Below are positions 4,723 through 33,406 of a stretch of DNA of 64,000 nt, piece after piece (position 1 is the stretch's first letter; each line of letters starts with the position of its first letter). The stretch lies in assembly GCF_021233435.1 (NCBI RefSeq), contig NZ_CP089469.1, forward strand, positions 248,001 through 312,000, given 5' to 3'. This DNA comes from Halobacterium noricense (GTDB lineage Archaea; Halobacteriota; Halobacteria; Halobacteriales; Halobacteriaceae). The translations under genes were made by a program, and so were the position numbers. A model generated the notes under the pieces. It worked only from the letters and a program-made list of their open reading frames with translations. It was not told the origin of the DNA and ran no database searches.

Positions 4723-5775
4723 ATGGCGGACGCACCGGATACCGAACGGCAGGCGGTCGAACCCGATGCGAGAGAGGTCCTTAGCGTGTCCCAGCTGAAC
4801 GACCGGATCGCGTCGGTCGTCCAGGACACGCCTGCTCTCAACGGCGTCCGCTGTATTGGCGAGGTCACCGACCTGCACCAGAACAGTACGGCGCTCTACT
4901 TCACGCTCACCGACGGCGACGCCGAGCTCCCCGGTATGATCTGGGCGAACCGTTACCGGGAGATGGACGCCGACCTCGAGGACGGGACCGAAGTCATCCT
5001 CGAGGGCGATATCGACTACTGGGTCGAAGGTGGGAAAATCGATCTCAAACCGTGGGAGGTGATCGTCGTCGGCAACGGCGACCAAGCGGCTGCCGTCGAG
5101 CGACTGCGAAGCGAACTCGAAGAGCGTGGCTGGTTTGATGACGAGCAGAAACAGCAACCGCCGGCGTTCCCGGAACGAATCGGCGTCGTCACGTCCTTTC
5201 GAGGAGACGCCCGGTACGACATCCAGAACGAGATCCACGGACAGGACCCCACCGTCAACATCCTGGTGAAGGACGCAACCGTCCAAGGATCGAACGCGCC
5301 GACGTCCATCGCGAACGGCATCCACCATCTCGACCGCTCGGAGGACGTCGACGCCATCATCGTCGGCCGTGGCGGTGGGAGCGATTCGAACCTCCAAGCC
5401 TTCAACACCGAACGGGTCGCGGAGGCGATCTTCACCGCGAATACCCCGATGGTCACGGCGATTGGACACACCGATGACCGGCTCATCGCGGATCAGGTGG
5501 CGGACGTCGCGACGATCACGCCGACCGCCGCCGGCGAGTATATCGCGAACTCCCGGAATGACTTTCTCGCCAGCGAGATCGAGCCGCTAGAGCAGCAACT
5601 TGACGCTACGTACGAGACCTTCCAGCAGGAGCACGAACACGAGGCGAAACTGGCAGAGGCTGTCGAGGAGGTGACGGCACCAGAGGGTCTTCCGCCAGTC
5701 TACTACAAGGCCGCTATTGCCGTGCTTCTGGTGCTGTTGCTGCTCATCACTGCGCTCTGGCTGGGGGTGATCTAA
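4723..5775 (+). CDS. xseA: Exodeoxyribonuclease VII large subunit-like, membrane-anchored
   Basis: 350 residues. The N-terminal OB-fold (about 20-115, LSVSQLNDRI ... LYFTLTD) and the catalytic core (about 145-285) match XseA. The core shows IGVVTSFRGDARYDI, then DAIIVGRGGGS and VTAIGHTDDRLIADQVAD. ExoVII degrades single-stranded DNA to oligonucleotides. The C terminus departs from bacterial XseA. Instead of the long helical stalk it has a short helix and then about 22 hydrophobic residues (325-348), a likely membrane anchor. The small subunit gene follows two bases after the stop but is interrupted by an IS, so the complex may be non-functional. Confidence 0.85.
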   Translation: MADAPDTERQAVEPDAREVLSVSQLNDRIASVVQDTPALNGVRCIGEVTDLHQNSTALYFTLTDGDAELPGMIWANRYREMDADLEDGTEVILEGDIDYWVEGGKIDLKPWEVIVVGNGDQAAAVERLRSELEERGWFDDEQKQQPPAFPERIGVVTSFRGDARYDIQNEIHGQDPTVNILVKDATVQGSNAPTSIANGIHHLDRSEDVDAIIVGRGGGSDSNLQAFNTERVAEAIFTANTPMVTAIGHTDDRLIADQVADVATITPTAAGEYIANSRNDFLASEIEPLEQQLDATYETFQQEHEHEAKLAEAVEEVTAPEGLPPVYYKAAIAVLLVLLLLITALWLGVI

Positions 5776-10856: not shown

Positions 10857-11918
10857 ATGGTGGACCTGATAGACGTCGTTCTCGAGGGCTTCAAAGGCGT
10901 CGTCGATTGGTTCATCGGTCTGTTCATGGACGGGCTTCGGTCGGGGTATCAGACGCTGACCGAAGAGATGTTTGGCACTCCGACTCCCCAGACTGACGGG
11001 ACGTTCATTTTCGGAGAACCAAGTAACGCCCCTTGGCCAGCAATTCAGGAAGGGCTCATCGGTGGCGAGATCATGTTGATTTCTCTGCTGCTACTCGTGA
11101 TGAGCGTTCAGGGACGACACACCATCCGCATCTTCAATATCGGGAGTGCGTACGAGGCTCGGAAGACCAAGAAGACTGCCTGGGTCGGTGCGTTCCTGAT
11201 CATTACGTGGTACTGGATCGGAGCGCTCGCACTCTACCTTGTCGACGGGTTCACAATAGCGCTGATGCCGGAGCTGTCCTCGCTGGCCTCTGCTATGCTG
11301 CAGTTCATAACGGGGTCGATTACCAATCCCGGTCTTGGTCTTCTCTTTGCTCTTATCGGAGGAATTTCGATGTGGGCACTGGAGGCGCTGTTCTACATAC
11401 GGCAGATTCTCCTCTACGTCTACCTGTACGGGATGCCCATAGCGTTCGCCGTTGCGTACGGCAATATCCCTGTCCTCTCTGATGTCGCGATGGGGTTCAG
11501 CAAACGGTTCGTCCCATTGGCCATCCTACCCCTGCCTGCGGCGATAGTCCTCAAAGGATACGACCTACTCTACTCTGGAGGGACGTTGACGCCGGGAACA
11601 GCGTTCCTCAAGTACCTCGTCGCGTCTTCACTTCCTCTCGTCGCGCTCTATGTCACGTGGAAGACGTTCAAATACGCGACCCCACTCACGGCGAAGGTTC
11701 TCGGTGGTGCGACGAAAGGAGCGGCCCTCATCGGCGGTGTCGCCGCTGGAGCCTACATCGGCGGCGCCGGCGTCGCGACGACCGCGGCCCGATGGGGACC
11801 GAAGGCCGCAGCGGGACACGCTGTGGCGCAGAAAGCTGCAGCCCGTGGCGCGAACAGCGACGAAGACGGCGGGACGCCGTCCTACCGGCGGACCGAGAAC
11901 GACCCTGGAGGTTACTAA
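10857..11918 (+). CDS. Polytopic membrane protein, VirB6/TrbL-like
   Basis: 353 residues with about six to seven membrane helices (roughly 60-80, 95-120, 125-150, 155-185, 195-230, 245-265). A Gly/Ala-rich C-terminal region (275-330, including GGVAAGAYIGGAG) follows, then a polar tail. A polytopic protein with a Gly/Ala-rich tail just before the VirB3- and VirB4-like genes is the position and shape of VirB6/TrbL channel proteins. No sequence motif proves this. Confidence 0.55.
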   Translation: MVDLIDVVLEGFKGVVDWFIGLFMDGLRSGYQTLTEEMFGTPTPQTDGTFIFGEPSNAPWPAIQEGLIGGEIMLISLLLLVMSVQGRHTIRIFNIGSAYEARKTKKTAWVGAFLIITWYWIGALALYLVDGFTIALMPELSSLASAMLQFITGSITNPGLGLLFALIGGISMWALEALFYIRQILLYVYLYGMPIAFAVAYGNIPVLSDVAMGFSKRFVPLAILPLPAAIVLKGYDLLYSGGTLTPGTAFLKYLVASSLPLVALYVTWKTFKYATPLTAKVLGGATKGAALIGGVAAGAYIGGAGVATTAARWGPKAAAGHAVAQKAAARGANSDEDGGTPSYRRTENDPGGY

Positions 11919-11924
11919 CAATCC

Positions 11925-13046
11925 ATGTCCATCGACGAAGACGCAGCCGCACGGCGCATCATGGACCAGTTCGGTGAGGAGAGTCGCATCCCCTACCTCA
12001 ACATCGAGGAAGGCGACGTCGGCGTCCTGATCGCCTTCCCGATCGTCGGCCTGTTCATCGCCGGCCTCACCGGCATCGAATCACTCGCCCTGCCGTTCGT
12101 CGCAGGTGGCTTCGGGTTCGGCGTCGCGATCGTCTACGTCTCGCCCGACCACCTCAACGCGTGGACGTGGACGAAAGACGTCTATCGCTACGTCAAGCGC
12201 CCCCATATCACGTTCAGCGCCCCGGAGGAGGCCGACAGTAGTACCAACGAGACAGAGCGCAACGAGGGCGGGCTCGCGAACTACACGCCGTTCAAGCCCG
12301 ACGAGCGGACGCAGGACCTCACGAACATCGAACGGGCGTGGCCGGGCGCTGGCGCGATCCAGCGCGCGGACGGCACGATGGAGGCGTTCATCGAGATCGA
12401 CCCCGGGAACATGGACTTCGCGATGTCCGACGACTGGGCACAGCTCCAGGACGCCGGCGAGGAGTTCGCCAACAAGGAACTGGACTCGAAGCTCAAACTC
12501 CACGCGACGACCCGCTCGTTCCCGGTCGAACAGATCACCGAGAACATCGAAGACCGCCTGAACGACGAGGACGTCAAAGAAAACCCGATCTTCCGGGAAC
12601 TCCTCGAAGAGTATCGAGAGACGCGGCCGAAAGAGATGCGCGAACGGGGCATCCAGCAGGTGCGGTACTACATCGGCGTCGAGGTCACCCCACTAGAGGT
12701 CTACGACCGCTTCCGCGATGAGGGGACGCCGGCCGAGAAGCTGACGCAGTTCCCCGTCATCGGGTTCCTGTTCAACACGTTCGTGACCCGCCGTGAGGAC
12801 CTCACCGACGTCGAGCGCCGCGCCCAGATGTTCGAGAAGCTCGACAGCCGGGTCAACGACGTGCGGTCGGAGTTCATCCAGCAGGCGTCGGGCTGGTCCG
12901 CTCGGCGGCTCAGCACGGTCGAACTCTTCGTGTTGAATATGGACTTCTGGAACGGCCGCGAACACGAGTACGACGACGCGGCGCGTGTCGTTCGCGAACA
13001 ACCGATTATCGGCCACTCGCGCCGGGAGGATGCCCACGATGCGTAA
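11925..13046 (+). CDS. VirB3/PrgI-like membrane protein with long soluble domain
   Basis: 373 residues. Two close membrane helices (about 30-50 and 52-72) form a hairpin followed by YVSPDHLNAWTWTKDVYRYV, reminiscent of PrgI/VirB3 proteins. The remaining 270 residues are soluble and resemble the N-terminal half of VirB4/CagE-like proteins (ending STVELFVLNMDFWNGREHEY). The next gene overlaps its end and supplies the VirB4 ATPase. It may therefore represent a membrane module plus part of VirB4 carried on a separate polypeptide, located at the inner face of the membrane. Confidence 0.6.
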   Translation: MSIDEDAAARRIMDQFGEESRIPYLNIEEGDVGVLIAFPIVGLFIAGLTGIESLALPFVAGGFGFGVAIVYVSPDHLNAWTWTKDVYRYVKRPHITFSAPEEADSSTNETERNEGGLANYTPFKPDERTQDLTNIERAWPGAGAIQRADGTMEAFIEIDPGNMDFAMSDDWAQLQDAGEEFANKELDSKLKLHATTRSFPVEQITENIEDRLNDEDVKENPIFRELLEEYRETRPKEMRERGIQQVRYYIGVEVTPLEVYDRFRDEGTPAEKLTQFPVIGFLFNTFVTRREDLTDVERRAQMFEKLDSRVNDVRSEFIQQASGWSARRLSTVELFVLNMDFWNGREHEYDDAARVVREQPIIGHSRREDAHDA

Positions 13047-15264
13047 CCTCGTCCTCCAGACGGGCAGCGGAGCCGTCGGCCAGCTCACGGAGTGGCTCAT
13101 GAACCCAACCTCAGGTGAAGGTGCGGCTCTCTACATTCTGCTCGCGGTACTGGTCGGGATCGGCGGGAAACTCCTCTGGGAGTGGTACGCTGATGACGAC
13201 GAGGAGGAGGTCGAGTTCTCAGACCTCCTGGATGAGGAGACCATCGAACAGGGCGCGGCCGAACGCCAGCTCCTCGACGACATCGCTGAGTCACACAAGA
13301 CGGTGACCGCGCCGGCGGCGATCGAGTGGGAGACGCGCGCGGCTCGGGTCGGCGAGCAGTGGACGACGACGCTGTACATCGCTGACTACCCGGACTACCC
13401 CAACGACGGCTACCTCTCCGAGCTCTTCGAGATGACGGACGTGCAGTTCGATTTGACGGCCCACATCACGCCGAAGAACCAGGAGCGGGCCCGGAACGAA
13501 CTCCAGGACATCGCTGACGACCTCCAGGTGGACGCTGACCTCGAACAGAGCGTGCGGAGTGCCTACCTACAGGAACGCGCCAACGAGGCCGCAGCGACGT
13601 ACAAGGCCGTCGAGAACGGCGCGAATGTCTTCGACCAGGGGATGTTCATCACGGTACGAGCCGACGAAAAGGATGCCCTCCGCGACGCCGTCCAGAAAGT
13701 CAAGAGCGCGCTCCGCGACGACCCGGCGAACCTCACGCCGAAGACGGCGATCTGTCGGCAGGATCTCGCCCTCCAATCCGCCGCGCCCATCGGTGACAAC
13801 GAGTTCGGGCGGACGTCGATTGCGCTCGGCGGCGCCGTCGGTGCGTTACTGTCTTCGCCGCACAACGCAACGATCCTCGAGGAAGGCGGCGTCGAGTTCG
13901 GCATCCACAAGGACAACCAGAGCCCGGTCGTCATCGACCCGTTCGCGCGGGACAACGGCTACGCGATGTTCACCGTCGGCGACACCGGGTCGGGGAAGTC
14001 GTTCAGTTCGAAGCAGAACTTCATCCGGTCGATCGAGCAGAGCAAGGACCGTATCGGCATCATCCTCGAGCCACTGAATAACTGGGCGGGGGTCGCCGAA
14101 GCCCTCGACGCCAAACGCATCACGGTCGGCGGGACGCTCGGCTTGAACCCCTTGGAGATTCGGGAGACGCCCGAGCACGTCCAGCGGGCGATGGGCGAGG
14201 ACGCGAGCCCGTTCAACGAGAAGCTCGACGACGCCATGAGCTTCCTCACCAACTTCTTCGCGCTACGGGGCATCTCACTCGGAGACCGCCGGACGACGCT
14301 CGAACTCGGGCTCAAGCGGGCGTACAAGCGCAACGGCATCACCGACGACATCTCGACGCACGGCAACCCGAGCCCGACGATTCAGGATATGATGGACGTC
14401 TTCGAGGATATGGTCGACGACCCCGAGGAGTTCGTCGTCCGGTCCGACGAGGAGGCGGGGAAGATCAAAGAGGACGCGACGTGGCTCCTTGACCAGCTCC
14501 GCCCCTTCGAGGACGACGGTCGGCACGGCAACCTCGGCCAAGAGTCCGACTTCGATATCCGCGACGAGAAGGTCATCTACCTCGACCTCGCCCAGCAGGA
14601 GGGCAGCGTCGACAGCAGCACGGCGCTGACGATGCAGCTACTCATCTCGCTGGTGTACGAGCGGGCGAAAGTCTCGGAGAAGGAGGTCGTGTTCTACATC
14701 GACGAGGCGCGCTACATCATGCAGGACGCCGCGAGCTTGGCGTTCCTTGAGACGGTGTTCCGCCACCACCGGCACCACGACCTCTCGATCCGGCTGGTCA
14801 CGCAGACTGTCGACGAGTTCTTCGAGCACGCCGAGTCCGAGGCCATTCTGGATCAGTGTGCGGTCAAGCAGTTCCACCGCCTCGACGGGATGGACGAGGA
14901 GTGGGCCGACGAGTTCGGGCTGAACTACGCGCAGATGCGGTTCGTCCAGGACGCCGTGCCGGGCAACGAGGACGCCGGCTTCTCCGAGGCCCTCGTGGGC
15001 GTCGACGGCGAGTGGCGCGGCATTCAGGTCAAAGCGATGCCCAAGGAGAAGCAGGTCATCGACTTCGACCCGACCTCACAGGTCCGGTCCTCACTGCCCG
15101 GCGCCGGCGACGACGCCGTCGATACCGAGATGGAGGAGTTCCAGGAAGAGCTCGAGCATCGAGCAACGAACGGAACGAACGAAACGAGCGAACTGAACGA
15201 GGAATCAGACGCCGTCGAAGCTGAGCCAGACGGCGGGTCAACGGAGGGGACCAACGATGGCTGA
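13039..15264 (+). CDS. VirB4-family conjugation ATPase
   Basis: 741 residues from the ATG at 13039, which overlaps the previous stop. One N-terminal membrane helix (about 30-50) is followed by a VirB4/TraC-type domain and a RecA-like ATPase. Walker A is GDTGSGKS near 314, and Walker B VVFYIDEA sits near 550-557 with a following arginine-rich helix. VirB4 proteins energise assembly of type IV secretion systems and pilus dynamics. The C terminus is acidic and Thr/Asn-rich, without motifs. It overlaps the VirD4-like gene by 8 bp, so translation is coupled. Confidence 0.85.
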   Translation: MRNLVLQTGSGAVGQLTEWLMNPTSGEGAALYILLAVLVGIGGKLLWEWYADDDEEEVEFSDLLDEETIEQGAAERQLLDDIAESHKTVTAPAAIEWETRAARVGEQWTTTLYIADYPDYPNDGYLSELFEMTDVQFDLTAHITPKNQERARNELQDIADDLQVDADLEQSVRSAYLQERANEAAATYKAVENGANVFDQGMFITVRADEKDALRDAVQKVKSALRDDPANLTPKTAICRQDLALQSAAPIGDNEFGRTSIALGGAVGALLSSPHNATILEEGGVEFGIHKDNQSPVVIDPFARDNGYAMFTVGDTGSGKSFSSKQNFIRSIEQSKDRIGIILEPLNNWAGVAEALDAKRITVGGTLGLNPLEIRETPEHVQRAMGEDASPFNEKLDDAMSFLTNFFALRGISLGDRRTTLELGLKRAYKRNGITDDISTHGNPSPTIQDMMDVFEDMVDDPEEFVVRSDEEAGKIKEDATWLLDQLRPFEDDGRHGNLGQESDFDIRDEKVIYLDLAQQEGSVDSSTALTMQLLISLVYERAKVSEKEVVFYIDEARYIMQDAASLAFLETVFRHHRHHDLSIRLVTQTVDEFFEHAESEAILDQCAVKQFHRLDGMDEEWADEFGLNYAQMRFVQDAVPGNEDAGFSEALVGVDGEWRGIQVKAMPKEKQVIDFDPTSQVRSSLPGAGDDAVDTEMEEFQEELEHRATNGTNETSELNEESDAVEAEPDGGSTEGTNDG

Positions 15265-18200
15265 GTACCTGCGCATCACGCCGACATCCGAGCGGCTTGA
15301 CCCGGAGAGTATCTCCCGCGTCCTCGACAGCCTCCACAAACTGACCACGCCCGGCTCGTCGGGCCTCGGGGCGAAGCTGAACCCACTCCACAGTGAGACA
15401 CCACCCCGATTCGAGTTCCTCGCGATCAGTGATGGCCCGGACGACCCGGTAGAGTTCTACTACGGGGCCGATGCCCACCTCGATACGCTTGAGAAGCGCC
15501 TCCGATCCATCTATCCAGCCACGTTCGACATCGAACGCGTCGACGTCGACGTCGCCGCTCGGCTCATTCAGCCAGTCGAGCTCACACCGCAGGAATTCGT
15601 CGACCACTACGAAGCCGGGCGGCTGCAGTACGAGTTTGGCCCGGCAGAACAGTACGAGATCGTCGACGAGGAATCAGGGGACTCCGAGCCAGCCGAAGCG
15701 GATCCCGTTGTCGACGGCGGTACGGCAACCACGAGCGTCCCCGATCATCACGTGACTGTCGGAGACGCAGCCCTCGAACTAGCGCCGCCAGATGCACTTC
15801 CAGACGACGAGGAAGAGCGACGGGCCATCGAGAAGCCGACGATGACACCGGCGGGAACGATTCTGGCTCGCCCGGCACAAGACGCTGTCTCGCCACTCGG
15901 TGTCCGGTGGTGTGGCACCGCGTCGCGGAAGCAGGACTGGATGACCTCGCTGACGCCGTTCACGGCAGAGGAAACGAACGGCGATCTCTCGTCCGTCGAC
16001 GAACCGGGCGCGGCGCTGGCGTCGTTGATCGACCACCTGATGGAGGCGACAGCGCCGACCGCGTTCCAGGTCGTCTTCCAACGGCGCGCCAGCTGGCAGT
16101 CCGATGCGGAGGTGCGGAAAGAGGACCTCGTCGACGGCAGGGATACGTTCTTCCAGGAGGTCGTCGGGTCGTTGCTCGAGGTCGAGGAGCAACGGAGCGA
16201 CCAGGACGACCGGCAGCTCAGCGAGGCCGTCGAGAAGCGCATCGAGTACATCGACGCGAAGAACGCCAAACGGTCGTTCACGGTCAACATCCGGGCCGTC
16301 GGCGTCCCCACCGACGACACTCGCGACGACCTCGATGGCCGGATGGACTCGCTCCTCCCGGTGTTCGACCCGCTGGATGGACCGTTCTACGAGGTCGAGG
16401 GACAACGCCTCCGGGACAGCGGGTTCCGTGAGAAAACGAAGGAGAAGAAGGCACGGGCGGCTCTCCAGCGCCTCCTCAATCGCGAGTTGACGACGGGCCG
16501 GGGGAAGACCCGCTCCGAGCTGGTTCTCTGTGGGACGGAGCTCGCGAACTTCGTCCTCGTCCCCTCCTCCGAACAGTTGACCGTCGAAGGGACGCGGGGG
16601 ACCAGAGCCGAACAGCAGAGTCGGAACCCGCTCCCGTGGCCAAATCCGGATCTGATCCAGCAGTTCCAGGACGGGATGGCCATCGGCTACGCGCTCGACG
16701 AAAACGGCGAGCCACGACCCAACCCGATCCGGATCCCGCCGGACCTGTTGCCAACGCATTACGGGCGGTTCGCGTCGACTGGTGGCGGGAAATCAAAGGC
16801 CATCATCAACGACGCGCTCTCGCTTCGCGAGACGACGGGTGGCCCCGTCGTCCTCGTCGACCCGAAGGGCGACGGAATGTGTGAGAACTACCTGCGCTGC
16901 CACTACGAACGGTTCGGTGGTCTCGACGACGTCTACCACTTCCGCGTCCCGGAGACCATCCCCGCGTTCTCGTTCTTCGACATCCGCCCCGCGCTCGAAG
17001 CGGGCCGCAACCGTGAGGACGCGATTCAAGACAAGGTCGACCACTTCCACGACATCCTTCGGATGATTATGGGTCGCGAGCAGTACGGCCAGGCGTTCGT
17101 CGCGAACGAGATTCTCAGCTACCTGATCAAGGCACTGTTCGACGAGGAGTACGGGAACGACGTGTTCGGGCTGGACGACCTCTTCGCCGCCGCCCTCCGG
17201 ATGCAGCGCGATCAGACGATTCCCCCGGTCTCAGCGGACAATCAGAACATCGAGGAATCGCTGACGCGCCACTTCGCGAAGGACAACCACCAGTTCCAGG
17301 TGTCGATGGACGCCGTCGGAAACCGCCTCGACAAGCTCAAAGAGGACGCGCATCTCCGCCGGATCTTCAGCCACGTCCCCGAGCAGAACGACGCCGGCGA
17401 GTACGTCGACAACCGATTCGACTTCCGCGAGTTCCTCGATGAAGACGCCACCATCATCTTCGACCTCGGCGACCTGCGGCCGGAGGCCCAACGAGCGATC
17501 ACACTGCTGCTGTTGAGCAACCTCTGGGACGCCGTGCAGGTGCGCCGACGCGACGGCCAGACCGACTACGAGAAGCTCACGAATCTCATCATCGAGGAAG
17601 CGGCGCCGGTCGCGTCGACGAAGCTCGTCTCCGAGCAGCTACTGCCGCAGGGCCGGTCGTTCGGCCTGAGTATGGGGCTCGTGATGCAGTTCCCTGAACA
17701 GGTGCGGAACCGGAACGAGCGAGCCTATGACGAGGTGCTGAACAACATCAAGACGAAGCTCATCGGCAACATCTCGATCGAACGCGACCTCGCAGAGTCG
17801 CTTGCCCACGAGGACCTCTCTCCAACCGAACTCCGCAACCGAATCAACACGCTCCCAAGTGGCGAGTGGATTGCACAACTCCCGAGCCCGTCGTTCGGGG
17901 AGACTGGTCCGCCGCCGTTTTCACTGAAACCGCTCCCGATTGCGCCGGGGCATCCAGAAAGCGACCAGCCGCTCACAGAACCCCAGGAAGCCCATTTCGA
18001 GTCCGTGTCCCGGCCACGGATGGTCGAGCGGACACAGGCCCAGTACGGGCTAACAGAGCCGACTGAGTCGAACACTGCTCCGGAAGAGTCTAGCTGGGGG
18101 AGTTCGGGTGCCGAAACGACAGGCTCGGCTGCCGACGCCGACTCAGGAACGGACCCGACGCAATCCGCGTTCATCAGCGAATCGACGACCGAGGACGCGT

Positions 18201-19081
18201 CGACGTCGACTACGCAGCCCGAGACGGACAGCGACCCAGATGCAGACGAGTCAAAGATGAGTCCCCTGTTCGGGCAGGCCACCGAGACGGACGAGGAGTC
18301 AACTGGTGACCAAACATCGGAGCCGGAGAACGGGGCAACGCCCGTCCAGGAAAGTAACGTGCCCGTCCCCGATGACGAACTCCGACAACGCGGGCTCAGC
18401 CGTGACGACGTCCGGTTCCTGAATCGGGTCCTCGACGTGATGAACAGAGAGGACGATGAGTACACGCTGCTGGACAGGATGAGCCAGCTTCGGGACGAAT
18501 ACGACGACCTCCATATGGAGCAGCTCACGGAACAGGACCTCTTGGAAGCGGACTCCGCGGCCGGGCGCAAGTACTACACCGTTCTCCCGGACGGTCGAGA
18601 CCTCCTCGGGAGAGAATTGAAGGCGGGGCCAGGAGCGGGCGATCTCGGCGAGAAAACGCCACACAAGGTTGGCGTCCGGCTCCTCGAGCTCTGGCTCCAG
18701 CAGCGGGATGACGTCGTTCGCGTGGACCCGTACTACGAAACCGACGACGGCACGGTACTGGACGTGGCCGGCTTCGACGAGGACGGCGATCTCGTCTGGA
18801 CCGGCGAAGCAGAGCTCGCGAGTAACAATCGGCACGCCCCGGTCGAGGATTACGACAAACTCAGCGCGGTGGACGCCGACGCGATCTGGGCCTTCAACAA
18901 TCGCGAGACGGCGCTCGACGTCCTAGATAGCCTTGCCGACGCGGATCGGGTCGACGAGCGGGTCAGCGGGCGGGATGCACGGTCGTTCGCGACCATCAGA
19001 GACGCCGTCGACGAGTTCGATGCTTCGGGGCTGACCACCGTTCGGGGCTTCAAAAATCTCGATCGAGAACTCAACCAATGA
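15257..19081 (+). CDS. VirD4/TraG-like coupling ATPase with extra C-terminal domain
   Basis: 1274 residues. An N-terminal domain of about 450 residues resembles the N part of VirB4-like proteins. A RecA-like ATPase follows, with ASTGGGKS near 507, VVLVDPKGDG, IIFDLGDL near 730 and an LIIEEAAPVAS strand near 776. A Ser/Thr/Asp-rich linker (about 890-1040) leads to a separate C-terminal domain (about 1050-1274). In that domain HKVGVRLLELWL, VLDVAGF and WTGEAEL resemble a PD-(D/E)xK nuclease layout. It probably acts as DNA pump or coupling protein. No relaxase gene is recognised nearby, so the extra domain is of interest. It overlaps the primase gene by 4 bp. Confidence 0.75.
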   Translation: MAEYLRITPTSERLDPESISRVLDSLHKLTTPGSSGLGAKLNPLHSETPPRFEFLAISDGPDDPVEFYYGADAHLDTLEKRLRSIYPATFDIERVDVDVAARLIQPVELTPQEFVDHYEAGRLQYEFGPAEQYEIVDEESGDSEPAEADPVVDGGTATTSVPDHHVTVGDAALELAPPDALPDDEEERRAIEKPTMTPAGTILARPAQDAVSPLGVRWCGTASRKQDWMTSLTPFTAEETNGDLSSVDEPGAALASLIDHLMEATAPTAFQVVFQRRASWQSDAEVRKEDLVDGRDTFFQEVVGSLLEVEEQRSDQDDRQLSEAVEKRIEYIDAKNAKRSFTVNIRAVGVPTDDTRDDLDGRMDSLLPVFDPLDGPFYEVEGQRLRDSGFREKTKEKKARAALQRLLNRELTTGRGKTRSELVLCGTELANFVLVPSSEQLTVEGTRGTRAEQQSRNPLPWPNPDLIQQFQDGMAIGYALDENGEPRPNPIRIPPDLLPTHYGRFASTGGGKSKAIINDALSLRETTGGPVVLVDPKGDGMCENYLRCHYERFGGLDDVYHFRVPETIPAFSFFDIRPALEAGRNREDAIQDKVDHFHDILRMIMGREQYGQAFVANEILSYLIKALFDEEYGNDVFGLDDLFAAALRMQRDQTIPPVSADNQNIEESLTRHFAKDNHQFQVSMDAVGNRLDKLKEDAHLRRIFSHVPEQNDAGEYVDNRFDFREFLDEDATIIFDLGDLRPEAQRAITLLLLSNLWDAVQVRRRDGQTDYEKLTNLIIEEAAPVASTKLVSEQLLPQGRSFGLSMGLVMQFPEQVRNRNERAYDEVLNNIKTKLIGNISIERDLAESLAHEDLSPTELRNRINTLPSGEWIAQLPSPSFGETGPPPFSLKPLPIAPGHPESDQPLTEPQEAHFESVSRPRMVERTQAQYGLTEPTESNTAPEESSWGSSGAETTGSAADADSGTDPTQSAFISESTTEDASTSTTQPETDSDPDADESKMSPLFGQATETDEESTGDQTSEPENGATPVQESNVPVPDDELRQRGLSRDDVRFLNRVLDVMNREDDEYTLLDRMSQLRDEYDDLHMEQLTEQDLLEADSAAGRKYYTVLPDGRDLLGRELKAGPGAGDLGEKTPHKVGVRLLELWLQQRDDVVRVDPYYETDDGTVLDVAGFDEDGDLVWTGEAELASNNRHAPVEDYDKLSAVDADAIWAFNNRETALDVLDSLADADRVDERVSGRDARSFATIRDAVDEFDASGLTTVRGFKNLDRELNQ

Positions 19082-19962
19082 CCTGGCGACAGGCGACCCG
19101 CGAGGAGATTTACGCCTACTACACTGAGGAGTTCCCCCGCTATCTGGACGACCTGCCGGAATTCATCACGGCGACCGGCCCGAAACAGTACGCCATCGCC
19201 TTCCGAGAGTCCCACCCGGTTCGCAAAGACGAGGTGCCGGCCAAGGACTTCATCCGGCGGGATACGTGGCAGACAGATCCGTCGGGGGACCGAACGACGC
19301 CCGAGTTCAACGACTTCGAGGATGTCGTCGAGTTCATTCGACACCCAGCTCGCAACGACCCGCTGGGGCGGAGCAAGTTCGCGCTTGCTGATCCGGAGGT
19401 GCTGGAGAAACCGGACCCACGGCCCGACGCCGTCTACTACGCGCTAGATCACTGGGAACGACCCTGGGTCCTCCTCGTCGACATCGACGCGAAAGAGATC
19501 GCCCGAAACCGAGCGGACGAGATGGTCTCGGCGGACGGCGACGATCGGGACGACGATGCGCTCCTCGACGCTGCGGGTATCCTCGACGCCGCTCCCGAGG
19601 GGCATCCGTACGCCTTCGAAGACGTCGACCGCGCCATCGAGTACGGGTTCGAAGTGCGCGACATCTTCGAGGACGATTTCGACGCCGAGGAGACGATGGT
19701 CGTCTACAGCGGGCAGGGAGTCCACGTCTACCTGCTGGATACCGACCCGGCGCACCGATACGACGAGCAGAGTCGCGAGGTGTTGAACGACCTCCTCCTC
19801 GAGACGTACGACATCCCGATCGACCCCGTCGTGACGGCCGACCGCCGGCGTGTCGCTCGGCTGCCCTACTCGCTGCACGCCGACGTCTGTAGCATCGTTC
19901 AACCAATCGAGAGCCCGGCGTTCGACGTTCGGTCGGCGATACCCGAGGTGATCGACGAATGA
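19078..19962 (+). CDS. Archaeo-eukaryotic primase catalytic subunit-like (PriS type)
   Basis: 294 residues. The archaeo-eukaryotic primase motifs are in order: the metal-binding D-x-D in VLLVDIDAKE (about 140), the S-G-x-G-x-H motif in YSGQGVHVYL (about 220), and the third motif in IDPVVTADRRRVARLPYSLH (about 262-281). The product would synthesise RNA or DNA primers. It is shorter than chromosomal PriS (about 380 residues) and is coupled by ATGA overlaps both to the transfer ATPase and to a PriL-like gene. This suggests complementary-strand synthesis during transfer, or element replication. Confidence 0.8.
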   Translation: MTWRQATREEIYAYYTEEFPRYLDDLPEFITATGPKQYAIAFRESHPVRKDEVPAKDFIRRDTWQTDPSGDRTTPEFNDFEDVVEFIRHPARNDPLGRSKFALADPEVLEKPDPRPDAVYYALDHWERPWVLLVDIDAKEIARNRADEMVSADGDDRDDDALLDAAGILDAAPEGHPYAFEDVDRAIEYGFEVRDIFEDDFDAEETMVVYSGQGVHVYLLDTDPAHRYDEQSREVLNDLLLETYDIPIDPVVTADRRRVARLPYSLHADVCSIVQPIESPAFDVRSAIPEVIDE

Positions 19963-21482
19963 GTCCGAGTACCCCCACCGACGACGAGGACATGGCGTAT
20001 CGGGTTACGGCACTCCCGCTGGAGTACGGTGAGACCCGCATCAACCAACTGTTTACGCGTGGCTACAACCGATACGTCGTCGACGGCGAGGACCAACCCG
20101 AGGACCTCGTGAACGACGTCGAGCGGTTCGGGACGGCAGCGTTCAAAGAGCAGGTTCGTGCCGACGCCGCCGAGGAGCCGTTTGTCGACGAGCCGGGGAC
20201 GCTCGCCGTGCTCGCGACGTTGAGTGCGATCTGTGTGAAAGCGCACCCGAAGTTCGAGCACGTGTCGCCACGGAACATCCAGGTGCTCTACGACATTCGA
20301 GAGCTGTACGTCAACAATCTCGCCTCCCTCATCCGCGCCCACGGAGATGGGTCGCTCCAGCAGGACATCGCCGACGTACTGTACAGCAAGGAGCCAGGTG
20401 AGGAGGGCCCGCATCCGGGTCGGGTCTGTACAGGCATCACGGAGATGCCGGAGTTCGGGGATGGCCTCTACCTCGAAATCCCGATGGCTGCGGCGTCACG
20501 CAAATGCCTTGTTCGGGAGGACGAGGCGTCGACGGGGAGTGACGATAGTGGGGAGATACTGACGCGAGTGAAAGACAACAAGCTGTACGTCCCGGTCGGT
20601 GATTTCGACAGCAAGTATCGGAACTACGCTGAGCGGGCGTTCAAGAAGCTCCTGCGGGTGCAAGAAGACGGGCTCTCCGACGACCAGCTGACGTGGCTGA
20701 CCACGAACGAGTCGGCGATCACGGAGCGGATCGACCGCTTCCTCGAGACCGGCCACCACGAGCGCATCTGGCGGAACTGGGACCGTGGGGAACGGACGAT
20801 CCGCGTCCTCCGACGAGCTCTGAGTGACGCGCCCGATGACGTGGCGCAAAAGGGTGAGTTCCACACGGCGAAGGAGCTCTATCGAGCGGTTACGGCGTAC
20901 GACTCCGAGGACGAGTGGGAATCCTCTGTAACGGACTGGATCTCGAGTCCAAGCAGTCTCGCGAAGACGCTGGCCGACCACGAGTCACACTCGGCCGTCA
21001 CGATCGATCGCGACGGGCGCGTCAATACGTACCGAATCGGGCGAGCTGGAACCGGCGCCGAACAGATCGAGGTCCGGGAGATCGAGGACCTCTTCGAACT
21101 TCCCTGTATGGCGAATATGGAGGAGCGGCTACACGAGAAGAAGCCCGTCCGGAAGGACCTCTACAACTTCGCGCGGATGGTGATGTGGCTGCCACAGTAT
21201 CAGGACAGCAGCCTCGACGAAATCGTCACGGATCTCAAGGACGTCTTCTCTCGGTGGCCGTGGTACGACGAGCAGGAAACCGAGTACCAGGTCCGTTACG
21301 AGTTCTCGAACACGATCGACGGCGACACCCCGTTGCCGATGAACTGCGATAACGACGATCTACAGCGCTACTGTATCGGCCAGGACCAGTGTCCCTACTC
21401 GATCTGGGGCAGCCTCCCGTTCCCGGATGAGATGTACGAGCAGGTCGAGGAGGAATCTGCCGGTCCTGCTGAGCAATTCTGA
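19959..21482 (+). CDS. Primase large subunit-like protein (PriL type)
   Basis: 507 residues. The C-terminal third has the PriL arrangement expected for a [4Fe-4S] domain: a Cys in FELPCMANM, then a helix with R-x-x-x-Y-N-F-A-R, and three more Cys in PMNC, RYC and DQCPYSIW near the end. The N terminus is helical and acidic, with GETRINQLFTRGYNR. PriL binds PriS and supports primer initiation. It follows the PriS-like gene with a 4-bp overlap, so the two form a plasmid-type heterodimer. Overall similarity is low and the assignment rests on the C-terminal cysteines and on gene order. Confidence 0.7.
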   Translation: MSPSTPTDDEDMAYRVTALPLEYGETRINQLFTRGYNRYVVDGEDQPEDLVNDVERFGTAAFKEQVRADAAEEPFVDEPGTLAVLATLSAICVKAHPKFEHVSPRNIQVLYDIRELYVNNLASLIRAHGDGSLQQDIADVLYSKEPGEEGPHPGRVCTGITEMPEFGDGLYLEIPMAAASRKCLVREDEASTGSDDSGEILTRVKDNKLYVPVGDFDSKYRNYAERAFKKLLRVQEDGLSDDQLTWLTTNESAITERIDRFLETGHHERIWRNWDRGERTIRVLRRALSDAPDDVAQKGEFHTAKELYRAVTAYDSEDEWESSVTDWISSPSSLAKTLADHESHSAVTIDRDGRVNTYRIGRAGTGAEQIEVREIEDLFELPCMANMEERLHEKKPVRKDLYNFARMVMWLPQYQDSSLDEIVTDLKDVFSRWPWYDEQETEYQVRYEFSNTIDGDTPLPMNCDNDDLQRYCIGQDQCPYSIWGSLPFPDEMYEQVEEESAGPAEQF

Positions 21483-28650: not shown

Positions 28651-30420
28651 TCAGAATAACTCTTTGAGATCCGCCACCCAACTACGGATTCTCTGAGTGA
28701 TCGTCTCGTCATCGTCGAGTTCAATATTATGGTCGCCTTCTTGTTCAAGCCCGTCTGGCGCGGGCTCAACGACACCACTGACTTCGAGGCCGTGATCCTC
28801 TAATTGTTCAGTCAAAATCGGATCTACAAACCGATAGATATCATCGATAGCAGGCTCGCCACGCCCCTCGAGTTCCGGTCGGTCACACGACTTCCTACAT
28901 CCAATCAGCTCGTCTCGTCCGTACTTCATCCGGTCGATCCGTCCGAAGGCTGGCTTGTAACGGAATGACCCGTTTGTTAGTCGTGGTGCAACCCCGAGCG
29001 TGAAGGCCTGAAATCGCTGCAGTACGAAATTCTCCATAAGGCCGTTCATAGAGATGACACTGGGAGCACGATCCTCTCCATCCTCTCCCATGTAGGTTCT
29101 CGAATCCGGGTTTTCATAGTCTTCACTAACCTGTGATTCCACCCACGCGTCCGCGCATTCGAGACAGGCATGGCTCGGTCCTGCGAGTGAAGCCGACGAG
29201 TACGCTTGGCTCGTCAGCTCATCTTGGTCGTCAATATCCAGTGAATTCCCTCCGTCAAATACCGGAATTAGACTTGCGTATGAAAGATCATCCAACACTT
29301 TTCTGACCCAGTGGGGGTCGGCGGCATTGATGATGATATCACAGTCAAGAAGGTGGGGAAGCGGATCGTACTCCTCCCGGTGTGATTCGACGACGCTCCC
29401 GACAACGGGACGGACTTGGAAGTTTTCGGCAGTAGCTGCGTTCTCCGCAACCCGGCCAGATACACGCACTTTCAGTCGCCGTTCGTCAACATCGATGCGT
29501 CGTGCACCCTGATGCCGATTGAAGTTGGCCGGTTCGATTCGATCAAAATCCACCAGAACTACTTCTCCAACTCCAAGCCGAGGGAGGTATTCAGCAAGGA
29601 TTGAGCCACCACCGCCGCACCCTGTAACGCCAACGCGTAGTCCGGCAAGTTCCCGTTGCCCCTCGAAACCCCACAACTCTTCAACCGAGTCAACCAGCTC
29701 CTCGTCGATCTCGCCGGTCGTCCCTTTTGGGCCGGTCCTTGGTACGGTGGCAGCTGTCTCTTTCTTGTCAAACTCTTCGCCGACGATACGGAGCGCTGTT
29801 GCGGGCGTTGCAGGGCCTGTATCGGGTCCGAAACCCTCTTGGCCTTGTTGCCCGCTCGTCCGGGCCACATTCATTTCAAGTCCCCGAATGTGCCACTGAT
29901 CTTTCTCTTCGCCTGCTTCCTCGGAATAGAGCATAGCCCCGAGAGGAGCATTAGGATCAAGCCGTTGGGCGAGGGGGTAGAGGTTCCGACGTTGCCGGCG
30001 ACGGTCAAATTCGTTTGGAGCTGCCTTTCCACCTGGGTGAGTGTGGACAATCAGGAGTCCACCACCGTTGATGCTCTCAGCAGCTCGGCGAGCCCGGCGC
30101 TGGTATTCTGGCCGGTACTGCAGCCCGTGTTGCTTAGATTCGCTCGCAATCGGCTCTCCCTCACCGTGCATCGGCCCTCTCCCAGCCCAGTATGTATCGC
30201 CCTCGTGAGGCATGATAACGTCTTGAACGAGGTACGTCACTCGGTCTCGGCCATGGACTTGCGTGATTACACAAAATGCGCCTCGCTCGGGTTCCTCTGC
30301 GTTTGGTCCCCGCTTCTCTGAGAGTGCCCGCTCGAGGGCTTCGAATTGTTCTCCTGAAATCGCGAAATGGAATTCATCGGCCTCGCTGGGTCGGCTTGAT
30401 CGTTGTATTGCTACACTCAT
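28651..30420 (-). CDS. JAB (MPN) peptidase fused to E1-like ThiF adenylyltransferase
   Basis: 589 residues from the Met at 30420. The N-terminal domain has the JAMM motif HTHPGGKAAPNEFD (His126, His128, Asp139), with Asn where Ser is usual, and an upstream acidic residue. The C-terminal ThiF/E1 domain has the nucleotide loop GCGGGGS (about 267), then VVLVDFDRIEPANFNRH and a basic LKVRVSGR segment. Two Cys pairs, CLEC near 419 and CRKSC near 508, form a probable zinc site. No separate cysteine in the usual crossover loop is obvious. It would activate a Ub-like tail by adenylation and remove tails by the JAB domain. It is the last gene of the minus-strand Ub-like operon. Confidence 0.8.
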   Translation of the reverse strand: MSVAIQRSSRPSEADEFHFAISGEQFEALERALSEKRGPNAEEPERGAFCVITQVHGRDRVTYLVQDVIMPHEGDTYWAGRGPMHGEGEPIASESKQHGLQYRPEYQRRARRAAESINGGGLLIVHTHPGGKAAPNEFDRRRQRRNLYPLAQRLDPNAPLGAMLYSEEAGEEKDQWHIRGLEMNVARTSGQQGQEGFGPDTGPATPATALRIVGEEFDKKETAATVPRTGPKGTTGEIDEELVDSVEELWGFEGQRELAGLRVGVTGCGGGGSILAEYLPRLGVGEVVLVDFDRIEPANFNRHQGARRIDVDERRLKVRVSGRVAENAATAENFQVRPVVGSVVESHREEYDPLPHLLDCDIIINAADPHWVRKVLDDLSYASLIPVFDGGNSLDIDDQDELTSQAYSSASLAGPSHACLECADAWVESQVSEDYENPDSRTYMGEDGEDRAPSVISMNGLMENFVLQRFQAFTLGVAPRLTNGSFRYKPAFGRIDRMKYGRDELIGCRKSCDRPELEGRGEPAIDDIYRFVDPILTEQLEDHGLEVSGVVEPAPDGLEQEGDHNIELDDDETITQRIRSWVADLKELF

Positions 30421-30442
30421 GGCTTCCCGAGAGATATCGAAT

Positions 30443-30937
30443 TCATCCGTGCTGGAGCATTTCAACCGCGAGGTCGTAGGCGTATTTCAAATCCTCGGGC
30501 ACTTCCATCGGCACTCCCGGTGCATTGTTGGGATCCCATCCCCAGGAGTAGAACTCGACGGCCTGATCGATGGCCTCGGTGGTTTGCTGTTCGACGCCAG
30601 CATTCCAGTTCGAGTTCAGTTGAATCCCTCGATTAGACCGTTGGAGAGGCGGAGCCGTTCCAAACCCCTTGGCATTTTCCCCGCCCCACTCCGGCCAATT
30701 CCGGGGCAGTCGAGCAAACACCTCGACCTCGTCGTGGGTGTACTCTAACTCGTGCCCGTTCGTGTCCTCGTTGTACTTGCCGAGTCTGAACATCCCGAGA
30801 CTGACCACTACGAAGTTCCCGACCCCGACCACGACCTCGATTTCCTGAAGGGGATGTGCATTTCGAAAGCTACCGAGCCCTTCCTGAAGCGGATCGGGGA
30901 GATCCCCTTCGTCGATGTCGTCTATCGTTACTGCCAC
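30443..30937 (-). CDS. E2-like protein (Prok-E2 family E type), cysteine-free
   Basis: 164 residues with the order seen in prokaryotic E2 family proteins next to multiubiquitin genes. It has a beta meander (LQEIEVVVGVGNFVVVSLGMF), F-A-R-L-P-R-N-W-P, then W-G-G-E-N and a C-terminal helix. It lies between the Ub-like gene (10-bp overlap) and the E1-JAB gene (22 bp downstream). No cysteine occurs anywhere in the sequence, so a thioester with a Ub-like protein is impossible as read. It may act as a scaffold or adaptor. Family assignment is from pattern and context. Confidence 0.6.
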   Translation of the reverse strand: MAVTIDDIDEGDLPDPLQEGLGSFRNAHPLQEIEVVVGVGNFVVVSLGMFRLGKYNEDTNGHELEYTHDEVEVFARLPRNWPEWGGENAKGFGTAPPLQRSNRGIQLNSNWNAGVEQQTTEAIDQAVEFYSWGWDPNNAPGVPMEVPEDLKYAYDLAVEMLQHG

Positions 30938-31536
30938 ACAGGACCACCCCCCTTGTCTCGAACCGCCTCGAACTCGTCGAAGTCGTCCAGAGGGACGTCT
31001 TGTTCGTTGTCCGGGTACCGAGCGTCGGCTTCCTCGTCTACCTCTGACGTATATGCCTCGATCGAGTACTCGGAGGCATCGTCGGGGTCGACAGAGTCTT
31101 CGATTAGTTCACCCGCCTTGACTGTTCTCGAGTCATAGAGTAGCGGGATACCGTTGACGCGGGCGAACCACTTGGACTGCTCGACCTGGATGTCTTCGAC
31201 GTAGTCCTCGACGGCTTCGAGGGCCACTTGGTACTCCTCGAACTCCTCTGTGAGACCATTGGCCTGGTTCGAAATATTGTCGGCCTTGGCTTGGAGGAAC
31301 TCGATCTGCGCAGGCGCAGCCGCGAGTTCAGTCACGTTGTCGGTGTCCTGTGCGTCGTCGACAGCCTCCTCGATCACGTCGAGGATATCCTCGATCTCTT
31401 CAACATCAGCAGCGAAAGTATCGTTGATGCGGTCCTCGATCGGGTCGAGCTTCTCTTTTGCTGTGTCGATTGCGCTCTCGAGCGGCTCGTAATTATGCGT
31501 CGGTTCGTCGTCGGAAGAGTCGTTAGCGTTTGTCAT
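30928..31536 (-). CDS. Coiled-coil plus ubiquitin-like (multiubiquitin-type) protein
   Basis: 202 residues. Residues about 15-120 are a long acidic helix with strong coiled-coil tendency. Residues about 125-198 read as a ubiquitin-like fold: FARVNGIPLLYDSRTVKAGE, then EYSIEAYTSE, then VPLDDFDEFEAVRDKGGG. The chain ends GGG followed by PVWQ. A tail after Gly-Gly is what a JAB peptidase removes to expose the C terminus for E1 activation. It is first in the operon and its stop overlaps the E2-like start. Known multiubiquitin proteins usually carry repeated Ub-like domains; here there is one. Confidence 0.65.
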   Translation of the reverse strand: MTNANDSSDDEPTHNYEPLESAIDTAKEKLDPIEDRINDTFAADVEEIEDILDVIEEAVDDAQDTDNVTELAAAPAQIEFLQAKADNISNQANGLTEEFEEYQVALEAVEDYVEDIQVEQSKWFARVNGIPLLYDSRTVKAGELIEDSVDPDDASEYSIEAYTSEVDEEADARYPDNEQDVPLDDFDEFEAVRDKGGGPVWQ

Positions 31537-31827: not shown

Positions 31828-32967
31828 ATGACTGAGGACATACTCACGGACATCAAACAGGAGTTGGAAAGTGGCGGAAACTGGCCACTAGAAGCGGACG
31901 AACATACGATTTCGAAAAACCCTTTCTCTGAAACCTGGCCCGACAACCGGTTATTCACCGGATATGAGGACGAACTTCGCGAATTACAGAAGAACATACA
32001 ACGAAATGTCAATACCTTCGTGACTGGCCCCTTCGGAACGGGAAAAACAATACTGTGCCGGGTGATGTACAATCTTCTCGCCGACATCGAGGGTTTTCAC
32101 CCCGCCTTCATCCAGGTCCAGAAAGGCCGCTACAGCAAGGCCATGGCGAAGAATATTCTCCGGGAGTTGAACGAGGATGTCGACTCGTCAGCTAGTCAAA
32201 GTGAGCTGTATGACCAAATAATGGAGGTATTGGAGGAGCGCTATCAGAGTGGCACCCGAACCGTGCTGTTCTTCGACGAAATCATAGCGGGTAGTGAGGG
32301 AACGCTTCGTCAGATACTCCACCTTCAACGGGACGTCGACGATTGGGAGCCAGTGATGATTTTCAATGGAACTACCTATATGATGGACCGCATTCATGCG
32401 AAAATCGAACCTCTCTCAGATCGAATTGGTGACGAAATCCGTCTCACGGGATTGGATGCGGAAAGTACGATTGATTTGGTGAATAAACGGCTTCGATACT
32501 ACTGTACCCAGAGCCAATGGAACAGCGGTGGCGGTTGTTCACACGACGACGGCGATGTCGCTCCCTTCACTCCAGATAGTATAGAACTTGTACATCAAGA
32601 CGTCACCCCGTATCCTCGCCACCTCTGCCGGGAGTTCAATACGATACTCGAGAGAGCTGCAGAAGAGCAAGTTGAGACTATTGATTTTGACTTTACCAAC
32701 GACATCTTGGCAGAATCGGCCAAAGAAAAAGTTGGCTCATTATCCGATGGCGGGGCTCTCGATATATTAGATTACCTTACCGAACACGGTCAGAGTAGCA
32801 TCAACGCTCTGTCTGAAGGACTTGGGGTAAGCTCCTACAATGTTGAGGAAGACCTTGATATGCTCGAAAAGGAGGGATTGGTTCGTGCTACCGAGGTCGG
32901 ACGAGGGATCCGCTATAAACTGACTGAGCAGGCGCGGAAAGAACTTAGCGACCGCAGGAAAGCCTAG
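31828..32967 (+). CDS. AAA-type ATPase with C-terminal winged helix (Orc1/Cdc6-like layout)
   Basis: 379 residues. Walker A GPFGTGKT (about 68-75), Walker B VLFFDEI (about 150) and a sensor-type IFNGTTY give an AAA ATPase. A winged helix follows near the end (ALDILDYLTEHGQSS, then NVEEDLDMLEKEGLVRATE). This domain order resembles Orc1/Cdc6 initiators and regulatory ATPases of the ExeA type. It diverges from the Ub-like operon across a 291-bp promoter region, so the two may share regulation. The 32969 gene follows one base after its stop. Confidence 0.65.
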   Translation: MTEDILTDIKQELESGGNWPLEADEHTISKNPFSETWPDNRLFTGYEDELRELQKNIQRNVNTFVTGPFGTGKTILCRVMYNLLADIEGFHPAFIQVQKGRYSKAMAKNILRELNEDVDSSASQSELYDQIMEVLEERYQSGTRTVLFFDEIIAGSEGTLRQILHLQRDVDDWEPVMIFNGTTYMMDRIHAKIEPLSDRIGDEIRLTGLDAESTIDLVNKRLRYYCTQSQWNSGGGCSHDDGDVAPFTPDSIELVHQDVTPYPRHLCREFNTILERAAEEQVETIDFDFTNDILAESAKEKVGSLSDGGALDILDYLTEHGQSSINALSEGLGVSSYNVEEDLDMLEKEGLVRATEVGRGIRYKLTEQARKELSDRRKA

Positions 32968-32968
32968 A

Positions 32969-33406
32969 ATGACGAACACCTCGAAATCTGAACTGGCACG
33001 ACTACTTGGGGATGAGGAACTCGGGGAGCAGGCGTATCGCCTGAGTATCCTCAGCCGATGGCCCAGTCTTAGAGTCCTTGACTTTCTCTTCACTCAGGGA
33101 CGTTCGACAACCGGTGAAATTGCCCGTGGGGTGAATATGGATATGCGTGAGATTCGTGATACGGTTGATTCACTCTCGGAGATTGGAGTCCTAAGGGAAG
33201 TCGACGATGGTGACACTATTTACTGGCTCCCGGCGAGCGAAGAGTTCTTGATTTCAGTCGAGAATCAGGATGGTCTCGAACTCAAACTAGAGACAGAGTC
33301 GTCTGATTCGGTCGTTCCCAAAAACAACGAAAAGACTGGCTCGCAGAGCGGGCTTTTTGCGAGCTTAGGAGCTCGCATAGACCGATTCATCGATTCTCTC
33401 CGGTAG
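32969..33406 (+). CDS. Winged-helix regulator downstream of the AAA ATPase
   Basis: 145 residues. Residues about 30-80 form a wHTH (RVLDFLFTQGRSTTGEIARG, then REIRDTVDSLSEIGVLREV). The acidic tail (SSDSVVPKNNEKTGSQ) ends in a basic amphipathic helix, possibly a dimerisation or membrane-contact segment. It is co-transcribed with the ATPase, whose C terminus also has a wing, suggesting a two-component DNA-binding unit. Target unknown. Confidence 0.6.
   Translation: MTNTSKSELARLLGDEELGEQAYRLSILSRWPSLRVLDFLFTQGRSTTGEIARGVNMDMREIRDTVDSLSEIGVLREVDDGDTIYWLPASEEFLISVENQDGLELKLETESSDSVVPKNNEKTGSQSGLFASLGARIDRFIDSLR

Follow-up and report, generated by a model that had tools for sequence, protein, structure and literature searches.

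An operon of Halobacterium noricense with the sequence and predicted folds of an archaeal Bub/class 6e ubiquitin-like system

The Bil systems and the type II cyclic-oligonucleotide-based antiphage signaling systems (CBASS), the latter with Cap2 and Cap3, share an E1, E2-like, and JAB logic for ubiquitin-like (Ub-like) tagging and are found on accessory DNA. Here we describe an operon in a 64,000-nucleotide stretch of the Halobacterium noricense genome (contig NZ_CP089469.1, positions 248,001 to 312,000; hereafter the window), which encodes a Ub-like modifier (tag), an E2-like protein, and a JAB-E1 fusion and which, judged by sequence and predicted fold, is an archaeal variant of the Bub/class 6e operons. 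The Iyer/Aravind class 6e (polyUbl) operons, known from experimental work as Bub (bacterial ubiquitination-like), encode a tandem Ub-like protein, an E2/RWD-like protein that lacks a cysteine, a JAB domain fused to an E1, and a protein that binds metal (PMC1779556, Table 1), with one solo-Ub exception recorded (PMC1779556). The 544 Bub operons listed are from bacteria (PMC13373217), and the structures of Citrobacter BubA, BubB, and BubCD (9ea4, 9ea5, 9ea8, and 9eae) are those of Ye et al. 2026 Nat Struct Mol Biol, as cited in PMC13373217. Cap2 is an E1-E2 fusion (PMC12355090), and Bil acts against phage by means of E1 and E2 conjugating enzymes (PMC12948488). In the SAMP/UbaA/HvJAMM1 system of Haloferax, haloarchaeal Ub-like small archaeal modifier proteins (SAMPs) are served by an E1 and by a JAMM protease (PMC4443979); a 2010 survey of archaea detected no E2 enzymes, and the sole JAB-E1 fusion that it named was from a methanogen (PMC2948915).

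Gene layout and predicted folds

The operon sits on accessory DNA, in a 369-kb contig, and consists of three intact minus-strand genes (31536-28651) that adjoin or overlap; their reading frames are intact where an earlier note on this DNA, made from the sequence alone, had placed three close or overlapping genes. The BubA-like tag gene (30928..31536, minus strand; an intact open reading frame of 202 amino acids [aa]) overlaps by 10 bases the gene for the cysteine-free protein with a predicted BubB-like E2/RWD fold (30443..30937, minus strand; 164 aa), the GTG start of which lies within the last tag codons. The BubCD-like JAB-E1 fusion gene (28651..30420, minus strand) encodes 589 aa from an ATG at 30420, 22 bases past the E2-like stop, or 604 aa from the mechanical first start, a TTG at 30465; the ATG is the probable start because it is favored by the alignment of relatives. 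The three proteins are all acidic, which is to be expected in a haloarchaeon. Public records of such gene sets list the tag and the E2-like protein as "hypothetical protein" and the fusion as "ThiF family adenylyltransferase."

Citrobacter BubCD ranked first in searches of the PDB with the E1 profile (1.4e-28) and with the window JAB-E1 alone (2.4e-12), and the UbaA model scored the window E1 at 31.8 bits, against a cut-off of 450. The proposed JAB-ThiF fusion is borne out by a Pfam match to ThiF (E=2.1e-24) and an N-terminal match to Prok-JAB (E=5.3e-5, 23.5 bits, slightly below the Pfam cut-off) with the JAB metal ligands E45, H126, H128, and D139 present. The JAMM motif HTHPGGKAAPNEFD (residues 126-139; 30004..30045, minus strand) has Asn136 at the usual Ser of HxH...SxxD, and the adenylation domain (about residues 245-515; 28876..29688, minus strand) carries GCGGGGS, DFD, N299, R302, K317, and CxxC...CxxxC. 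In an alignment of 47 related E1s, from which residue conservation was read, E45 (one row gapped), H126, D139, N299, R302, K317, and the first Asp of DFD are invariant, and the zinc cysteines C419/C422 are universal.

For the E2-like model (pLDDT 81, pTM 0.80), structural re-alignment placed 9eae_C, the BubB of the Citrobacter BubCD-BubB complex, at the top (Z 9.6, root-mean-square deviation 3.4, 124 residues), followed by mostly UBC and RWD domains with Z of about 5. Alignment of the E2-like profile with the E2-like proteins of bacterial 6e-type loci by hhalign gave a probability of 92 (P=5e-7, 55 columns), and 2 of 14 E2-like proteins matched Prok-E2_E weakly (E about 0.06). An E2-like fold, as previously proposed for the second protein, is thus predicted, with a resemblance to BubB and a weaker one to UBC/RWD domains. 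The window protein contains no cysteine, and no Cys column is common to its 14 relatives (none in at least 30% of them); it therefore cannot be a canonical E2, and canonical E2 activity was ruled out on this ground.

The tag was modeled with AlphaFold2, with 14 relatives in the input alignment (mean pLDDT 88). The model has a four-helix bundle at residues 17-115 (31192..31488, minus strand; helices 17-36, 39-65, 74-91, and 96-115; block pLDDT about 87-97), a Ub-like beta-grasp domain at residues 123-193 (30958..31170, minus strand), and a C-terminal tail at residues 194-202 (30931..30957, minus strand) that ends in KGGGPVWQ, is predicted to be disordered (low pLDDT), and is a candidate JAB processing site. 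The best Foldseek matches of the whole model are Citrobacter multi-ubiquitin 9d59 and 9d5a, closely followed by the bacterial multi-ubiquitin 8u38 and by BubA bound to BubCD (9ea8_B), at modest E-values of about 0.02-0.07. The earlier note had put the Ub-like domain at residues 125-198 behind a long coiled coil: the fold stands as a prediction, with its limits corrected to 123-193, and the helical part stands too, but as a compact four-helix bundle and not a coiled coil. That there is a single Ub-like domain agrees with the model and with all 14 aligned relatives. The bundle alone matches many unrelated four-helix bundles and is therefore uninformative on function; a helical N-terminal part occurs in about 8 of the 14 relatives, scattered across the E1 tree, and the bundle is, as far as models and alignment go, optional.

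Pfam Multi_ubiq (PF14452) is matched by 5 of the 14 tag relatives (best 9.7e-8). When haloarchaeal genomes were searched with the PF14452 profile, a single match exceeded the cut-off and the remainder were weak, which makes this model unusable for a haloarchaeal survey; PDB sequence searches with the tag and E2-like alignments returned only chance or coiled-coil matches. In most tag relatives a Gly lies about 6-9 residues beyond the last conserved Phe and is followed by a few more residues; in every aligned relative residues are present beyond the tag glycines, and none ends at Gly-Gly. No cysteine occurs in any of the 14 modifiers. With Citrobacter BubCD, BubB, and multi-ubiquitin (BubA) as the closest solved structures of the three proteins, the operon appears to be an archaeal branch of the Bub/Iyer class 6e group.

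Distribution and phylogeny of the three genes

Conservation of the gene set was surveyed in 391 Halobacteria genomes, counting as a full-length JAB-E1 relative any match at E<1e-70. Such relatives occur in 16 genomes as 17 copies, two of them in the genome of the window, and an independent search with the E2-like profile led to the identical set of 16 genomes, with 17 places that are all adjacent to a JAB-E1 gene and no orphan E2-like gene. A Ub-like protein is encoded upstream of the E2-like gene in all 16 further loci that were read (L031-L046). Compared with the window proteins, the E1 fusions are 34-42% identical and the two small proteins about 15-29%. An order conserved in 16 haloarchaeal genomes is not due to chance, and the survey of gene order that the earlier note had called for gave strict co-occurrence in 16/16 genomes. 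On the three points on which that note could have failed, a Ub-like fold is predicted for the first protein and an E2/RWD fold for the second, and the genes stay together; its match to bacterial multiubiquitin/E2-like/JAB-E1 loci holds by sequence, predicted fold, and conserved gene order.

Many copies of the trio are on plasmids and some are on chromosome-sized contigs. The second copy in the genome of the window (L042:1239-9286; chromosome, about 306-314 kb) is divergent and has the JAB motif HTQP, not HTHP; its neighbors encode a D12-type (type II) methyltransferase, a PycC-like nucleotide cyclase, and an HNH-repeat protein. Outside the haloarchaea, a metagenome-assembled genome of a Thermoplasmata archaeon (L052:4251-6515) has the complete trio in the same order, with a tag that ends in AGGGGFS. 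In a maximum-likelihood tree of E1 proteins, 14 haloarchaeal proteins and the one from Thermoplasmata were grouped with support of 100/98; bacterial, methanogen, and other haloarchaeal JAB-E1 proteins fell outside this archaeal trio clade. A viral origin was also considered and set aside, as searches of viral contigs and phage records with the JAB-E1 query returned no relative.

The other haloarchaeal JAB-E1 loci are separate lineages, with standalone or duplicated Ub-like/E2-like pairs in L048 and L049; at L048:7138-8945, one JAB-E1 gene is preceded by two tandem pairs of this kind. In another lineage, two loci (L047 and L050) encode helices, the Ub-like domain, and the E2-like domain fused in one protein of 327-328 aa directly before JAB-E1, and the E1s of L047, L050, and L019 are near-identical across different haloarchaeal families. 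In Halobacterium sp. TGN-42-S1, a degenerate second JAB-E1 fragment lies downstream of an intact trio (L041:10344-11134).

Proposed mechanism and competing explanations

Our best explanation, to which we give a probability of roughly 0.7, is that the operon is an archaeal relative of Bub/6e in which the JAB domain trims the tag, the E1 adenylates it, conjugation is cysteine-free, and the E2-like protein serves in docking. Gene order, homology, predicted folds, the adenylation and JAMM residues, and the lack of a usable conserved cysteine can be read from sequence or model; from these we infer tail processing, adenylation of the exposed glycine, conjugation, docking, and reversal. The JAB domain would cut the short tail beyond the modifier glycines, and the fused ThiF domain would adenylate the glycine so exposed. 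The modifier, together with its helical bundle, could then be joined to a target amino group without a conserved catalytic cysteine, by direct aminolysis of the adenylate or via an oxyester intermediate. The cysteine-free E2-like protein would serve for docking or positioning by binding the E1, and the JAB domain could also remove the tag. Bacterial BubA has extra Ub domains, and the bundle may take their place as a module for assembly or bulk. Oxyester intermediates reportedly occur in bacterial Bub. The E1 residue S454 (in ..PSV..N) is invariant in the 14 haloarchaeal and the Thermoplasmata E1s and present in BubCD, and is Ala, Gln, or Asn elsewhere; because it is replaced in other lineages, it is only a candidate oxyester nucleophile or acyl acceptor, and only in this clade.

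Several observations weigh against this explanation. Foldseek with the E2-like model gave no E2 match under E=0.001, the BubB match coming from re-alignment, and Pfam misses the window's own tag and E2-like protein. The Gly-Gly motif of the tag is not strict, as in DGRNYV (L037) and RTPGNA (L043). In the JAB domain, Asn136 occurs at the JAMM serine only in the window, with Ser or Thr in the other 46 E1-JAB proteins, and four haloarchaeal relatives, the second copy in the genome of the window included, have H128Q. Given these variants, JAB activity may be altered, or is at least uncertain, in part of the clade.

Non-covalent assembly is an alternative that we consider unlikely. The modifier would build filaments or scaffolds by means of its bundle and Ub-like domain; the E1 and JAB domains would control this assembly by adenylation or cleavage, with no joining to other proteins. 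Multi-ubiquitin filaments are among the nearest modifier structures, Gly-Gly is weakly conserved, and a catalytic cysteine is lacking, all of which would suit such a role; the adenylation residues and JAMM ligands, however, are almost always kept in the 47 E1s, which suits tag activation and removal.

Distinctly improbable is a function in plasmid maintenance or self-regulation of the element, with the divergent neighbor of the operon as a partner. This neighbor encodes an AAA/winged-helix ATPase of 379 aa (31828-32967) and, with a winged-helix protein of 145 aa, spans 31828-33406; many relatives of the operon are plasmid-borne, which speaks for this explanation. But a search of 241 other haloarchaeal genomes gave no relative of the ATPase at E<=1e-20, no such gene lies near other copies of the trio, and some of those copies are on chromosome-sized contigs. 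The divergent DNA-binding ATPase of the earlier note is therefore a real AAA/winged-helix gene but, as a singleton, not a conserved partner of the operon, and we ruled it out as a component of the system.

We find it very improbable that the modifier is a sulfur carrier for thiolation, of the ThiS, MoaD, or SAMP kind, with no protein tagging. The ThiF/MoeB-like E1 domain fits that role, and Ub-like SAMPs with a JAMM protease do exist in haloarchaea (PMC4443979); the window modifier, however, has a further tail beyond its glycines, the JAB domain and the E1 form one protein, the E2-like partner is never missing, and a patchy accessory distribution (16/391) is a poor fit to core metabolism. Least probable of all is a canonical thioester E1-E2 cascade, as in Bil or in eukaryotic ubiquitination, in which the second protein would be a catalytic E2, for despite the UBC-like fold and the operon shared with E1 and JAB, that protein has no cysteine and its 14 relatives share no Cys column, and the E1 cysteines are the zinc-type CxxC/CxxxC pairs plus C360 in LLDC, which we rejected as a catalytic cysteine because it is not kept throughout outside the clade and is lost in some other family members.

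Neighboring genes, possible role, and comparison with known systems

In five genomes the trio is surrounded by a block of 10-16 kb, complete or in part (L032-L036; also L136), with genes for UvrD/PD-(D/E)XK, a PLD/tyrosyl-DNA phosphodiesterase-like protein, MrfA-like DEAD helicases, and an RNase H-like nuclease (MrfA/MrfB-like). Four of these blocks share 94-96% DNA identity, which indicates recent transfer and hence few independent events. An Argonaute-family gene (pAgo) lies near the trio in L033. The trio-bearing mobile block is possibly part of a larger defense or repair system, and the neighbors alone, those of the second copy in the genome of the window included and all taken as raw occurrences, suggest a role in conditional defense or the DNA-damage response. 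Against defense, even for bacterial Bub no protection from phage has been demonstrated (PMC13373217). On a 35-kb Halanaeroarchaeum plasmid (L031:2-5114), genes for a SpoIIE-type phosphatase and a PAS/HATPase kinase precede the trio and loosely recall the GHKL kinases that regulate Bub operons in bacteria.

Elsewhere in the window is a type IV secretion/conjugation-like cluster (10857-21482) with a TrbL/VirB6 protein (E=8.7e-135), a weakly VirB4-like protein of 759 aa, and a weakly HerA-like protein of 1274 aa. An Exonuclease VII large-subunit homologue (4723-5775, E=1.8e-51) lies on the same accessory contig.

The operon class and its bacterial structures are already known, but a full archaeal set without catalytic cysteines that forms its own clade is useful and open to experiment. 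This complete tag/E2-like/JAB-E1 set extends a cysteine-free Ub-like pathway to archaea, where it stands beside the SAMP system, already under genetic study in Haloferax, and it makes testable in a tractable host whether archaeal Ub-like conjugation can proceed without E1 and E2 cysteines and what the targets of Bub are. We would go further only tentatively, and at clearly under even odds, in supposing that the haloarchaeal and Thermoplasmata lineage is a deep cysteine-free branch of its own that uses the bundle as a tag payload or assembly part in mobile antiviral or DNA-damage defense.

The operon and the SAMP system both pair an E1 and a JAMM protease with a haloarchaeal Ub-like modifier, but SAMP has no E2-like partner and the window E1 belongs to a different subfamily from UbaA; unlike SAMP, ThiS, and MoaD carriers, the window modifier ends in GGGPVWQ and not in Gly-Gly. 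The operon differs from Bil and CBASS in that its E2-like protein lacks a cysteine and its JAB domain is fused to the E1; with the E1 joined to JAB there is no E1-E2 fusion as in type II CBASS, and no CD-NTase was found among the window neighbors scanned. The likeness to Bub lies in a JAB domain N-terminal to the E1 within the fusion, a BubB-like cysteine-free partner, and a BubA-type Ub-like domain. The differences are that the window operon is archaeal, that its tag has one Ub-like domain instead of two or three, in this group often behind a four-helix bundle, that nothing in the aligned stretch of the Citrobacter protein corresponds to the first zinc CxxC pair of its E1, and that WYL, ImmA/IrrE, and STAS-type Cap regulators are absent among the window neighbors scanned. 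On plasmid pSYSX of Synechocystis, which has the 6e layout, helix-turn-helix and ImmA/IrrE genes are divergent and a DUF6527 gene follows the E1; the window operon shares with it the Ub-like, inactive E2/RWD-like, and JAB-E1 genes in that order. The Cys/His signature of a zinc-binding DUF6527-like protein, sought with a crude regular expression for which the Synechocystis control was positive, is absent within 4 kb in 18 archaeal loci. Because tandem Ub domains and a DUF6527-like protein both set class 6e apart from this operon, we place it as an archaeal variant of Bub/6e and not as a strict 6e member.

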